Origin: Saururus chinensis
Lineage: Eukaryota; Streptophyta; Magnoliopsida; Piperales; Saururaceae
Assembly: GCA_035235625.1 (NCBI GenBank)
Contig: CP141140.1
Span: 12,854,685 to 12,918,684, forward strand
DNA: 64,000 nucleotides
Reading direction: 5' to 3'
Each line of letters starts with the position of its first letter. Within the stretch, counting starts at the first letter, position 1. Under the pieces are notes generated by a model. That model was not told where the DNA came from. It did no database searches and saw only the letters and a list, made by a program, of their open reading frames with translations. The translations under genes were made by a program, and so were the position numbers. This document shows positions 44,152 to 56,483 of this stretch, in pieces.

Positions 44152-45097
44152 AATTTGTTGGTGATATTTTTGGATCGATGTGGTTGATGCTCGTTAAGTC
44201 TTTTGCTTTGGAGATATAATTGGCTTTGATGGTACTAACTTTCTTATGTGAAGTATGATCAAGGTCTTCTACTTTGGAAAGATAACAGGCTTTCGTGGTT
44301 TCCATTTGATGTCTCAAATGGCTGTAAGAAAGCTTCACTTAGGGAGAATTTAAACTATAGGAGAAGCTAGAGCTGGAATCTGTAGTTCAGTAACAGCATT
44401 TTCATGTCTTTATTCTGTGGCCATTTCATGTACCACAAGGCTGTTAATTCGTTCCAATTTGGGAGGATAACCTTGATCTAGAATCTGTAGTTCAGCAACA
44501 ACATTTTCATGCCTTCATTCTTTAGGCATTTCGTGTCACTAAAAGGCTATAAGTAATCACCATTTGGTGAGAGCTGTAACGCTGTTGGAGAATGTAGAAC
44601 TGGATTCTGTAGTTCACCAACAATATTTGCATGCCTTTTCGCAATAAAGTTAACTCGTGATTATCAACCAAGATACTTGACTTCTGAAGAGATTGTACTC
44701 ACATCATCTTGATCTTCAGTTTTGCCGATGGTTTGGGGAAGATACTGGTGTTTCTCTTGTCATGCCTTGTAGCTAAATGAATATTTGTGAAGGTCAGTCA
44801 AGTTGGACATCAATGTTCGCTTTGGTATGGAAGATTAATTTATTACCTTATTCGGCCATTAATATCAGCCTAAGCTATAACATCGTATCCAAATCATAAA
44901 GTTTTGTTCTGAAATGATAAAAAGCACAATTAATTACCTAACCAAGACATAAAACCATAATGCACGCGGGTTAATTGATAAAGAACATAATTTACATATG
45001 CGCAAAAAGAAGTCTTGTTCAATCACTCTAGTGACCGTTGTGCGTCTATGCTTGCCCTTGCCTAACCAAGACAGAAGTTTTTAAAAAAAAGGGCGTT
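44152..45097. repeat. MOZART1 3' flank with degenerate 80-120-bp tandem units
   Basis: Three degenerate copies of CTGTAGTTCA(G/C)…AACA…TTTTCATGCCTT follow each other from about 44373, 44478 and 44600. Each is next to an AAGGCTRT segment. Before them, a second pair (TCTT…CTTTGGARAGATAA…GGCTTT at about 44198 and 44266) repeats with about 70-bp spacing. They probably are in the 3'UTR. The rest up to the tRNA is unremarkable. Confidence 0.65.
45083..45090 (-). terminator. RNA polymerase III terminator of tRNA-Met
   Basis: Eight T residues on the minus strand start 7 nt past the tRNA 3' end, a standard pol III stop signal. Confidence 0.85.
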
Positions 45098-45182
45098 GGG
45101 GTGAGAGAGGCTCGAACTCTCGACCTCAGGATAACTCGGAAAGCTATGAGACCTACGCGCTAGCCAACTGCGCCACCACCCC
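45098..45182 (-). tRNA. Elongator tRNA-Met (CAU) with a 12-nt intron
   Basis: The minus strand folds as a cloverleaf: acceptor GGGGTGG/TCACCCC (one G-U), D-stem GCGC/GCGC, anticodon loop CUCAUA with CAU at 45146-45148, and T-arm GAGAG/CTCTC with loop TTCGAGC. The spliced length is 73. The 12-nt intron (45133-45144) follows position 37, as in plant elongator tRNA-Met genes; tRNA-Met and tRNA-Tyr are the intron-bearing plant nuclear tRNAs. The U31-U39 mismatch is typical of elongator Met. Internal A and B boxes are intact, so the gene looks functional. Confidence 0.95.
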
Positions 45183-51241: not shown

Positions 51242-53247
51242 TAGGGGTGTTAATGAGTTGAGCCAGCTCGTCGAGTAAAGGTGTCTCAATTCAACTTGAC
51301 TCGACTCGAATATGGCTTGATTCAAAGTGGCTTAGCTCGAAATCGACTCGAACTCAAATATTTTTGAGTTAAGTTTGAGTATACCCTGGCTTAACTCAAC
51401 ATGGCTCGAATAAAACTTGGCTCGTACTCAACTTGAACTTGAATGAAATTTGTAAAAATCTATAAATACATATTGATACTTATGTATACTTATGCACAAT
51501 TATCAATCCCAATTTATATTTATAATATATACATATATATTACAAGTTTATATGTTATTAATAAATGTATAATGTTTATGTATTAAATATTAGCTTATAT
51601 TACACATGACATATATTTTTGAGATGTAAACATTTAAAGACACATTATAAAGATATGTCCACATGTGATATGTATTGAAATTTAGATATATCATAGAAAT
51701 AAGATTTAATAAAGTATATACATATATAATACAATCAAGTAAAAAATATGATATATTATACTACATATCAAACAATATATTAATCATTAGACAATATATT
51801 ATGGTAATATTATTTATTATATTTATATATCAAACAAATTATGATATGTCTTTTCAAATTTTCTATGAAGACTACTATTGGAATCCTTATACATTCAAAT
51901 TTTACAATAATTTTCTAAATATTTTTAAGCATTGAGTCATATAGTCTTTTTTTTCATAAAATTAGGGTAATTTATATTTATTTGGGATAGGTCCAAGATG
52001 ACAAGACATCAAGTTTATGTTCTCACATACTAAAACTCGACTCGACCAGGCTCCTTAGCACCCCTACACATTATACATAATATAAATTATTTAAAAGTAA
52101 ATATTTTAAAGAGAGATAATATACATATATTATATAAGATATTTTTAAAATTTTATATTTATGTATAGTAGAAATAAATTATATACATTCATATATGATA
52201 TCTCATATACAAAAATATAGTTAACCACAAAGGCACTAATTTTTTCTTTTTGATGATTATAAGATTTGACACTTAAAGTAAGAAGTGAATACAAAGATTT
52301 AGAAATTTTAGGTTATCAAATAATAAATATATTTCATACAAAGGTTAGAGTATGTAAAAGAGGTTGTGATGCCGCATGTACTAATATGTGATAATAATAA
52401 TGACATGTTAATACAAAACTACTACAAAATATATAGAATATAAATATATGAACATTTTAATGGTACGGAGGGAGTACATATGTACTAATAATAGTGACAT
52501 ATTTATAGAATACTACTAAAAGATGCATATGTGGTTAAACATATAAACACAATATATAGCATAACAAATGAAAATATTAGAAAAAAAGCTAATTAATAAG
52601 TACATAATATTATTTATACTTTAGTTGTCTATTTACAAATATATGAGCTTTTAATAAATGATGACAATTCTATATAATATTGTATCTATAAATAAATACT
52701 TCATTTGTCTTATATTAATAGCTCTATTTAATTTTTAAAAATAAATTAAAATTAATTCATTTTAAAAAAATAAATAGAGTTATTAATTTAAGATGAAGAG
52801 AGTATTTGATAATATTAATTTTTTATTAAACAATTAATATATATTGGTATAATGAGGTAAAAATATTAATTAAGTTTTTGCACTCATTTTCATGTATTAA
52901 AATATATAATAAATATAAAGAAGTATAAATATTATTTAAAATAACATAAGCCAAGTGCACAACTTTAACGACGGAATGATAATATTATATTTAATAAAAA
53001 AATATTTAAATTATGAGAACATCATTTTTATTTGGTAGAATGCTTAACACAAAAGGTTAGGTAAAGTGGTCAAGTGAGCCAAATTTCAGCTAAATTATGC
53101 ATATACTAATTCAAACTCGAGCATGTATTGAATTTCTAGTTTTTTTTTTAAGTCGAGTTTAAACCGAGCTCGAGCCAATACCCAAAACTATGAATTTGAA
53201 CCAAGTTAACCCAAAACTCGACTTAGCTCAGCTCGTTAACATCCCCA
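51242..53247. mobile_element. Non-autonomous hAT element with perfect 8-bp target duplication
   Basis: The element starts TAGGGGTGTTAATGAG and ends, in reverse complement, TGGGGATGTTAACGAG. It is flanked on both sides by CTTACATT (51234-51241 and 53248-53255), an exact 8-bp duplication as made by hAT transposases. The ends carry clustered CTCGA/GAGCTCG motifs; the 2-kb core is extremely AT-rich and non-coding. An extra internal end (…GCACCCCTA near 52068) suggests a smaller relative, 51242-52070, fused with a second piece. A Stowaway element sits at 52699-52802. Confidence 0.85.
52699..52802. mobile_element. Stowaway-type MITE nested in the hAT element
   Basis: About 104 bp flanked by TA. 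One side reads CTTCATTTGTCTTATATTA…TAGCTCTATTTA. The other, reverse-complemented, reads CTCTCTTCATCTTAAATTA…TAACTCTATTTA, so almost the whole element is one hairpin, as in Tc1/mariner-derived Stowaway MITEs. It has no coding content. Confidence 0.75.
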
Positions 53248-53546
53248 CTTACATTAAAAATGCCCATATAGTATTCATACTACTAATTTAGGATATAAAA
53301 ACTACAATAGAAAAAAAAACCTTACAAATGCCCACACTACAATTAATTTAGGATGGAGGGAGCAAAATAAACAATTAATCTTGCTGCTAAAAGAAGCTTT
53401 ATCCTTGTAAACTGGGCAAAGCAAAGGTACCTATAAACATATGGCCAAAAGAAGGGCTTGCATTTACAAAATTTACATTCCAAATACGGAAAAAAATTTA
53501 CTCTAACATGAACTAGTTTCAAGACAGCATAATGTTAATTTTTTTC

Positions 53547-56147
53547 CTAATCGTCATTAGAAGTCAACCACATGAGGTATTCTATTCCTCTACTTAAAAC
53601 AGAATCTGAGCCGTGGCCAGGAGGTACAATCCTCTTTCTAAGCAAATTTTCTACATTCACCGCCTTTCTTTTCCGACCACCCCTTGGCTGTGATTGGAAT
53701 TGCTGATCAGACTCCACAAAGTCTCCCTGCAATAAAATCCAATGCTTAAATCAGCAACATATAAGACGCCATATCTCAAGCAAATATGGTACCAAAATAC
53801 ATAAAACCAAGTCAATTATCATTCTAACTAGAAGCACCTCACTCCTAGTTGAAGTTCTACTCAACCTGAAACAGAGTACTCACATGTACATATACATGAG
53901 CTCCAGATTTCTCGTGATTGTCTCTGACATGCTTGTATGGAAACGTCTTCCCACAGCCAGACACTCGACAAGTAAATTGTCGGAGCTTGAGGTGGACAGA
54001 ATTCACATGTTGCTTGAGATTTGAAATCTGCAGATCCAAGAGTATAAATGGCATATATTAACGTTACTGAAGTTGGCCAGAGTAACACAATCCTCAAACA
54101 GAAGGACATGTAAATATTACTGTAGAAAATGTGCAGTGGCAATCCTTGAAGCTGCAATGGATCTTCTTTGCATCTATAACTGCTTGGTCATGAGTGTTCA
54201 AATGTCGCTTCAAGTTTTTCTTTAGCTGTCGACTCCCACAAACTTCACAATTAACATACTTGTTACAAGTTTGTATATGGGTCTAAAGACATTCTACATT
54301 TGAAAAGTACTTCATGCATCCCGGATCAGAACATATTACTTCAACAAATTCCAATTTAACTGTAAGAAAGAAACAAGCAATTGATTTCAAACCTTCGTAC
54401 AAAACAGATCATGAATAAATATATTAACAAGATGCTCTGCAGCTGCAAATATCAAGCAATTAGGACATACACAATATACTCGTTAAAGACCTACCATGAG
54501 ATAACTCATGCTGTTTTAGTTTCGATACAAACTTGAAAGCCTTTCCACATCCAGTTTCTGGACAAATATGCAACTTCGGACCTCCAACAAAAGAACCTTC
54601 CTCATGAAATTCCTTCATATGCCGTTTCATGTTTGCTTGGAAGGTAAACTTCCGATTGCAATTTTTAGTGGAACATGTGAAGAGCTTTCCTTGGTGCCCA
54701 AGCATGTGTCTGTTTAAATGATCCTTCCGTCTATAACTTGCGTGACAGTCATCCACAGGACAATGAAATGGCCTCTTCAAGACGAGAAAATTAAAGTCAT
54801 CACCTTAAGACACAGACTAGAGAGAAAAAATTGTAGACATGAGGAATAGATTGCCATATTTATAGCACGGCCTAACACGATTGAAAGCAAGGTGTTCTGT
54901 CTCCAATTAAAAACCAGTGAGCAAAAGGCTGCCAATCATCTACAGGAAATTAAAATGGCCTCTTTAAGAAAAGGAATTTATGTCATAAAATTAACCAGTA
55001 ACATAAGACAACCATATTTCTAACACTTGATAACGTAAATCAAAGCAAGAGCTTTTCTATCTCCAATTTAAAACCAGCAAGTGGAGGCAGTCAAAGAAAA
55101 AAACAAATGAAGTCCTTGATACTATAGCAAGATGCAAGGCACCTGACGAGTCACCGTTTACTCAGAAGACAGGAATACACCACGAATGACATATATAATA
55201 AAAGAGCACTGACTAGTGGTAAAGTTACACAAGAAAAAGCCAACCTTGTGCGTGATTGAGGCGTCACTCGATGGAGTTTCACAGGAGGGTCAACCATCCT
55301 GCTACTGGTCCATTCAAGAACATCAAGTCTGCCTCTTCGCAATTTGGAGTTCTTCAAATGGGATCCAATGCTTCACACACCATTACAGAGTTCTGATATG
55401 ACTACCAAATAAAAACCTCAATCCTGCACATCCAGCACCATCTTAGAAGCAAATAAAGAAGTAATCAAGTAAGCCTAAATATACAATTGGTTTAGGAATT
55501 TGAAGACTTCTTCAATCAAAATTGTTTGGGTGAACAAACGGTATTCCAAAAACAATCCTAAACACATCCAAACAAATTGGCCATAATTACCCATTAGATA
55601 ACCAAGAGAATCAATTTCACCAACCAAGATTAAACAATCGCTACACAACAACAAAGCAACTCCAAAAGCACCAATACCCAAAAAAAATAAAATCATAAAT
55701 CAAGTATATGGGGTAGAAGATACCTCAGAGGAATGACTTAACATATGCTGCTTCAGATGTGCAGGCTTCCGAAAGCTGGCTCCGCATTCTTTGCAATTGC
55801 ATGATGAGCGCGGCTCACCAGCACCATTGTTCGCCTCATTTTTTTTCATCTCAGCTTCCTCCTAATTACATAGGATGCTTCGTCAAAATAACCGTTGGAA
55901 GAATACTCACAGAAACCAACAAACAGAGAAATCAAGGGTAAACCCTAGAAAAGGGGATGTTGCAGGGTACCTTATGCTCAGATAGGATGTGGGCAGCAAT
56001 TAGGGCTTTTTTGGATCTACAAATGCCACAAAATTCACAGTAGTGGCGCCTTATGTCTCTGACGACTGGCTCCTCCTTCCCCTCCTCCATACCCGTGGTT
56101 AGCTTCCACTTGCACGCGTTAATGCCAAGCAATCTTCCCGATTTCAT
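53547..56147 (-). CDS. TFIIIA: Transcription factor IIIA (5S rRNA gene factor), with an in-frame stop
   Basis: Six coding exons on the minus strand: 55971-56147, 55724-55861, 54495-54774, 54121-54359, 53884-54027, 53547-53726, 386 codons in frame. ATG 56090 (MEEGKEEPV) is an alternative start. Successive zinc fingers match plant [117 protein letters not shown]…, [28 protein letters not shown]…, [19 protein letters not shown]. The tail RPRGG-like QPRGGRKRK follows. The protein binds the 5S gene and 5S rRNA. Codon 54283-54285 is TAG where relatives have Lys, with homology resuming after it. The P5SM cassette lies in intron 2. Confidence 0.88.
54748..55092. repeat. Tandem duplication copying the TFIIIA post-P5SM splice acceptor
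   Basis: Segments 54748-54934 and about 54935-55092 are diverged direct copies. They share ATCYACAGGA, ATGGCCTCTT.AAG, GTCAT, TCTCCAATT.AAAACCAG and GAGC/GTGG endings. On the minus strand the first 27 nt of exon 3 and its AG acceptor are thus present twice, the upstream decoy AG being at 54963-54962. The decoy would read AGG CCA TTT TAA, an immediate stop. Confidence 0.75.
55245..55392 (-). promoter_or_regulatory. P5SM: 5S-rRNA-mimic poison exon of TFIIIA
   Basis: Between coding exons 2 and 3, a cassette framed by TATCAG| and CACAAG|GTTGGC copies blocks of plant 5S rRNA in order: GGATCCCAT, GAACTCC, AGTAG.AGGATGG.TGACC and CCTG.GAA..TCC (about 55366 down to 55273). In land plants this element is bound by ribosomal protein L5, which controls its splicing so that TFIIIA output follows free 5S RNA or L5 supply. 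Here the cassette is 148 nt, not a multiple of three. Read from exon 2 it meets TGA after 12 codons, so inclusion kills the frame while skipping joins SSE|RPFHC. The borders are inferred from splice sites. Confidence 0.9.
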
Positions 56148-56184: not shown

Positions 56185-56272
56185 CTCACTCCATCCAAAA
56201 ATAAGTGTCATGTTTTCAAAATTAGCTAGTTTAGTTCATTTCTCATTTTGAAAAATCAAATGGGAGAGGGAG
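56185..56272. mobile_element. Stowaway-type MITE just upstream of TFIIIA
   Basis: About 88 bp with ends CTCACTCCATCCAAAAA and, reverse-complemented, CTCCCTCTCCCATTTGA, each flanked by TA, with the CTCCCTCCGT-like signature of Stowaway elements. It begins about 37 bp upstream of the first TFIIIA ATG, so it lies in the leader or core promoter of that minus-strand gene. Confidence 0.7.
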
Positions 56273-56274
56273 TA

Positions 56275-56483
56275 TAAGAAATAAGGCAAAAGTTACATAA
56301 TCCATCTCATATCGTATGTAAGGCAAAGAACCCATAACATAATTACGAATTTCTCTTTCAGCAATGAGTCCGACTCTGGCCTATCTTATATAATTTGGAT
56401 CTAAAACTTCTGCTTGCTTGAGTACTGAAAATGTGGCTCGGAGTCACGGACTTGGACTATGGGTCAGTCGTTGTAACAATTCA
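56275..56483. other. Promoter-side spacer of TFIIIA
   Basis: Short AT-rich spacer between the MITE and the LTR cluster. No clear TATA box was found on the minus strand. Confidence 0.4.

Follow-up and report, generated by a model that had tools for sequence, protein, structure and literature searches.

A P5SM exon resembling 5S rRNA in a TFIIIA gene of Saururus chinensis whose assembled reading frame is interrupted

Introduction

The minus-strand stretch 55392-55245 of the 64-kb window, i.e., the whole length of Saururus chinensis DNA analysed here, is in all likelihood the P5SM (plant 5S rRNA mimic) exon of a TFIIIA gene, a confidence that bears on the identity of the element and not on the state of the gene. 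This cassette exon (55245..55392, minus strand, 148 nt as given) is recognised from its position, from a sequence and pairing that resemble 5S rRNA, and from peptides matching it in the gene models of six other plants, all of which uphold the identification proposed in an earlier note on this DNA. P5SM is a published element of land plants, for which the founding papers, reportedly Hammond 2009 and Fu 2009, are said to describe a plant 5S rRNA mimic in the TFIIIA pre-mRNA. From what is established for the family, inclusion of the exon would introduce an early stop after two zinc fingers, and binding of the mimic by the ribosomal protein L5 would lead to exon skipping and thereby to synthesis of TFIIIA. 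As such, the switch would tie the synthesis of 5S rRNA to the supply of L5.

The L5-P5SM-TFIIIA mechanism is described in four papers (PMC5568362, PMC5972288, PMC6164485, PMC4538838), and PMC4374538 is cited on P5SM beside PMC5972288 and PMC6164485. In the engineered HyP5SM cassette retention is the default state, and the proposed model has L5 displace a splice factor that favours retention (PMC4538838). More recently, P5SM was recovered again in a plant screen of 2025 (PMC12218528). For the gene considered here, inclusion by default, L5 binding and exon skipping would follow by transfer from this literature. Given these published accounts, the phenomenon is already known; what is new is a further member of P5SM, together with an unexpectedly broken host gene. 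Like the known elements, the present one is located in the same gene, terminates the frame after fingers 1 and 2 when included and carries a 5S-like sequence with 5S-like helices; unlike them, it is hosted by a TFIIIA frame with a TAG in finger 6, its minimum-energy fold differs and its response to L5 is putative. In this added member, the helix changes relative to 5S rRNA support the mimicry model.

Gene Context and Position of the Exon

That the host gene is TFIIIA is indicated by homology: of 845 candidate proteins, 477 match at E up to 1e-3, and the ten best are 60-63% identical, most being named plant TFIIIA; comparisons with homologues were made on the best 120 of the 477. In a tree of the window TFIIIA with 30 homologues, hand-chosen out of those best 120, the protein clusters with two proteins of Aristolochia (support 93/90; the fork is not a starred one), which makes the plant a probable relative of that genus. 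The gene model comprises six exons and 366 codons on the minus strand, namely (i) a first coding exon from the ATG to finger 1 (55971..56090), (ii) an exon for finger 2 (55724..55861), (iii) the exon next after P5SM, which by finger assignment encodes fingers 3-5 (54495..54774), (iv) an exon for fingers 6-7 and the start of finger 8, which holds the TAG (54121..54359), (v) an exon for the end of finger 8 and finger 9 (53884..54027), and (vi) the last coding exon (53547..53726). A search of the 64-kb window for further TFIIIA fragments, at E up to 1e-3, found none.

The P5SM exon sits between the TFIIIA exons of zinc fingers 2 and 3, on the same minus strand, and its position, premature stop and flanking splice signals are directly visible in the DNA. 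The stretch 55392-55245 is directly preceded by AG and directly followed by GT, and its length leaves a remainder of one (148 mod 3 = 1). Reading on from exon 2, a TGA is met inside the exon after 12 sense codons (55354..55356, minus strand). The coordinates and length of the 148-nt stretch, the frame shift and the TGA 12 codons in had all been put forward in the earlier note and hold. So does its claim that minus-strand intron 2 of TFIIIA carries blocks of 5S rRNA, which were recovered as claimed: GGATCCCAT at 55366-55358, GAACTCC at 55352-55346, AGGATGGTTGACC at 55300-55288 and CCTGTGAA at 55285-55278.

Sequence Resemblance to 5S rRNA and Inserts in Other Plants

When aligned locally to a composite angiosperm 5S rRNA, the P5SM exon reaches a score of 60 over about 100 nt, which none of 5000 dinucleotide shuffles of the exon attains (mean 20.9, sd 3.9, maximum 43). 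Of all 3452 tile-and-strand comparisons made within the window, that with the exon ranks first, and the best non-overlapping tile reaches 38. Against one printed Arabidopsis 5S rRNA the score is 52, equalled by one of 5000 shuffles. The resemblance of 55392-55245 to 5S rRNA is, by these alignments against shuffles, beyond chance. Searches with Rfam 15 did not bear this out: at curated thresholds nothing in the 64-kb window matched except a tRNA, with no 5S rRNA (RF00001), and at E up to 10 the intron returned four unrelated matches at chance level, with neither a mimic family nor 5S rRNA. The covariance check with an Rfam P5SM model, suggested earlier, lent no support at either setting, i.e., at curated thresholds or at E up to 10, and Rfam may hold no P5SM model. 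When viral and prokaryote contigs were scanned with exact patterns and with proteins for plant 5S, TFIIIA or P5SM, no relative emerged.

Extra residues at the junction of fingers 2 and 3 are present in six gene models among the best 120 homologues listed, namely those of Camellia (P0033), Ipomoea (P0074), Rhododendron (P0075), Malus (P0085), Papaver (P0088) and Rehmannia (P0106). In a comparison made at the peptide level only, the best translated match of every one of these six inserts in the 64-kb window lies in the P5SM exon or overlaps it, at E values of 0.005 to 0.082 that are each weak alone; the match of the Rehmannia insert overlaps the exon and extends 36 bases upstream. With shuffled peptides, the best match fell at the P5SM exon in only one case out of 600. 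Besides, the insert of Malus domestica P0085 contains two P5SM-like peptides in tandem (PPVKLHQASLNH twice), which suggests from the peptide sequence that the apple P5SM may be tandem-duplicated.

Structural Mimicry and Folding

The base pairs of 5S rRNA helices III, IV and V were mapped onto the exon, where 15 of 15 pairs are standard, five being changed on both sides and two on one side; the mapping was hand-placed, with alignment gaps shifted and helix V picked by eye, so that this count is supportive and not a blind test. On the minus strand, helix III (UUGGA/UCCAA) with its loop C, UCCCAUUUGAAGAAC in place of UCCCAUCAGAAC in 5S rRNA, occupies 55344..55368 by fold and pair mapping. In loop C, UCCCAU and GAAC are retained and three bases are added. 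The same two approaches place helix V (AUGGA/UCCAU), loop E and helix IV at 55271..55313, where the strands of helix IV are 55302-55297 and 55286-55281, and pair mapping finds loop E intact, with AGUA at 55306-55303 and GAA at 55280-55278. What the P5SM RNA imitates of 5S rRNA is helix III together with loop C, and the arm that bears loop E, a mimicry in both sequence and structure. With 5S rRNA (RF00001), the exon shares the pairing of helices III, IV and V, most of the loop C letters and AGUA/GAA in loop E; it differs from it by insertions, by other letters in helices I and II and by the lack of an Rfam match.

An alignment of about 100 nt with 5S rRNA is also what would be expected of a diverged 5S pseudogene having landed by chance in the intron. 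Such an origin is extremely improbable, however, as the Camellia, Ipomoea, Rhododendron, Malus, Papaver and Rehmannia models have matching peptides at the same junction, the pairing of 5S positions is preserved via double changes and no Rfam 5S match occurs in the window or the intron. It was rejected on account of the junction peptides in these six other plant gene models, and the P5SM exon is retained as the identity of the element.

The predicted fold energy of the exon is -47.2 kcal/mol (z -3.43), and none of 200 shuffles was equally stable. This minimum-energy fold differs from the 5S-like fold, which reaches -43.0 kcal/mol with the helices imposed, i.e., a gap of 4.2 kcal/mol. In the free ensemble, the pairs of helices III and V have probabilities below 0.01, and three of the five outer pairs of helix IV stand at 0.93 or more. 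A possible closing helix of 8 bp, analogous to helix I and weak as a prediction, could join GUGUGUGA at 55380-55373 to UCACGCAC at 55255-55248 (55248..55380, minus strand); its probabilities are 0.86-0.98 in the isolated 148 nt, but such a helix appears in 166 of 1000 shuffles and its probability drops to 0.00 in a 348-nt context. In these models, both a minimum fold unlike 5S rRNA and the loss of the closing helix in context speak against a simple structural reading.

The alternative fold could itself be viewed as one state of a bistable RNA, in which a long hairpin, CCAUUUGAAGAAC/GUUCUUGAAUGG, would mask the L5-binding arm until L5 arrives. Its prediction as the minimum-energy structure, ahead of the constrained 5S-like fold by 4.2 kcal/mol, is in line with this proposal, which nonetheless appears unlikely: the loop C letters engaged in the hairpin differ in Camellia, Malus and Rehmannia, as back-read by inference from the inserted peptides, so that the hairpin looks lineage-specific, and the energy models give no credit to loop E or to protein binding. 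A switch based on the minimum-energy alternative fold was considered and not adopted.

Splice Borders and the Duplicated Acceptor

Splice sites in and just around the intron were ranked with a simple plant matrix. It puts the donor at 55245 in 2nd place out of 71. Among 44 acceptors, 55392 comes 19th and is outscored by two alternatives, namely 55423 (GTGCAG/GATTGA; 2nd) and 55401 (GGTAG/TCATATCAG; 4th), both on the minus strand (55401..55423). Among the claims made beforehand, those of the exact 5' border and of good splice sites around the 148 nt are not confirmed, the acceptor at 55392 being weak by this crude matrix. Because the acceptor of exon 2 itself scores equally low (-0.42 vs -0.43 for 55392), the matrix is a poor judge and does not settle the border. 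The 5' border at 55392 is uncertain, being one of three candidate acceptors on reading the sequence. With a start at 55423 an in-frame TGA is the second codon, and with a start at 55401 the exon is 9 nt longer and meets the same TGA; since the starts at 55392, 55401 and 55423 all give an early stop, the poison reading is independent of the border.

Further into intron 2, a diverged tandem copy of the acceptor of exon 4, together with its first codons, is found at 54930..54980 on the minus strand (78% over 51 nt; real counterpart 54743-54793). The tandem duplication has a second segment, 54890-54917 vs 55050-55077, at 86%, and no other internal DNA match was found in the TFIIIA locus. From this ghost acceptor, with an exon start at 54961, the sequence reads AGG CCA TTT TAA; in the same matrix it ranks 7th of 44, against 5th for the real acceptor at 54774. 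Usage of the ghost acceptor is a possible further route to an early stop.

State of the Host Gene

The TFIIIA frame itself carries two lesions, both in finger 6 and 21 bases apart. The first is an in-frame TAG at codon 205 of 366 (54283..54285, minus strand), in a column occupied by K in 105, R in 10, E in 3, Q in 1 and N in 1 of the 120 best homologues. The second is codon 212 (54262..54264, minus strand), which encodes Asn at a position where His is invariant in the 120 best homologues; by finger assignment, this His is the second zinc ligand of finger 6. As assembled, the exon-skipped mRNA does not encode a nine-finger TFIIIA, given the TAG at 205 and the Asn at 212, and both isoforms end early. 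Splicing round the TAG was discarded as an escape: the codon lies between the zinc ligands of finger 6 and its 239-nt exon, if skipped, shifts the frame.

The proposal that inclusion of the exon switches the gene off is consequently right about the early stop and incomplete otherwise, since the skipped mRNA is already broken by the TAG and by the lost zinc ligand. It is incomplete, too, with respect to other plants, where, according to one review (PMC6164485), the included form encodes a seven-finger protein and its mere destruction by decay is disputed. The TFIIIA-7ZF isoform of that review and the included form here would both come from inclusion of the same exon; in contrast to the former, the 148-nt exon here leaves the first downstream Met inside finger 3, in a frame that stops at the TAG, so that no seven-finger product is encoded in the assembly.

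Two readings of these lesions carry most of the weight. The chances are about even that this TFIIIA is a recently disabled duplicate in which the switch has so far escaped decay. The TAG and the Asn at a position with His in 120 of 120 homologues fit a damaged gene, as do the fingers after the stop (residues 206-310), whose identity, set against that of the part preceding the stop, is the 7th lowest among 121 sequences; the whole part after the stop is 14th of 121 in relative divergence. Two facts sit less easily with a disabled duplicate: TFIIIA is described as single copy (PMC6164485), and among the 97 columns that at least 97% of homologues conserve, the gene matches 96, codon 212 being the sole difference. 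This same agreement makes a sequence error plausible, and a working TFIIIA, with the TAG and the Asn codon as base errors of the assembly and a P5SM that would function as in other plants, is the main alternative, credible though somewhat less likely. It would accord with the description of TFIIIA as single copy and deeply conserved (PMC6164485), with exon junctions that hold one reading frame save for the TAG and with 35 of 36 assigned zinc ligands intact, but it has to accommodate two separate substitutions 21 bases apart in one finger, and fingers after the stop that are somewhat more diverged than usual. Very improbable is a third possibility, in which a five-finger truncated TFIIIA or a transcribed pseudogene would keep its P5SM RNA to titrate L5, such that the broken copy would tune the splicing of an intact one.

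Given the separate stop codon, the P5SM switch may be guarding a TFIIIA gene that is already damaged. If the stop is real, this would be a natural case of a P5SM switch in a disabled TFIIIA copy, and would show how long such an RNA element persists once its protein product is lost.

Other Features of the Window

Stretches resembling CTCCCTC lie on both sides of the TFIIIA gene, at 56190-56280 and at about 53360 (minus strand), and are reminiscent of small inverted-repeat transposons. A check for inverted repeats in these flanks gave a single inverted pair of 13 nt, at 56213-56254; no such pair was found at 53200-53500. Elsewhere in the window, a tRNA gene is located at 45097-45182 on the minus strand (RF00005 match, 48.6 bits). 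ARAGORN did not name its anticodon, near which the gene carries an insertion that is probably an intron.
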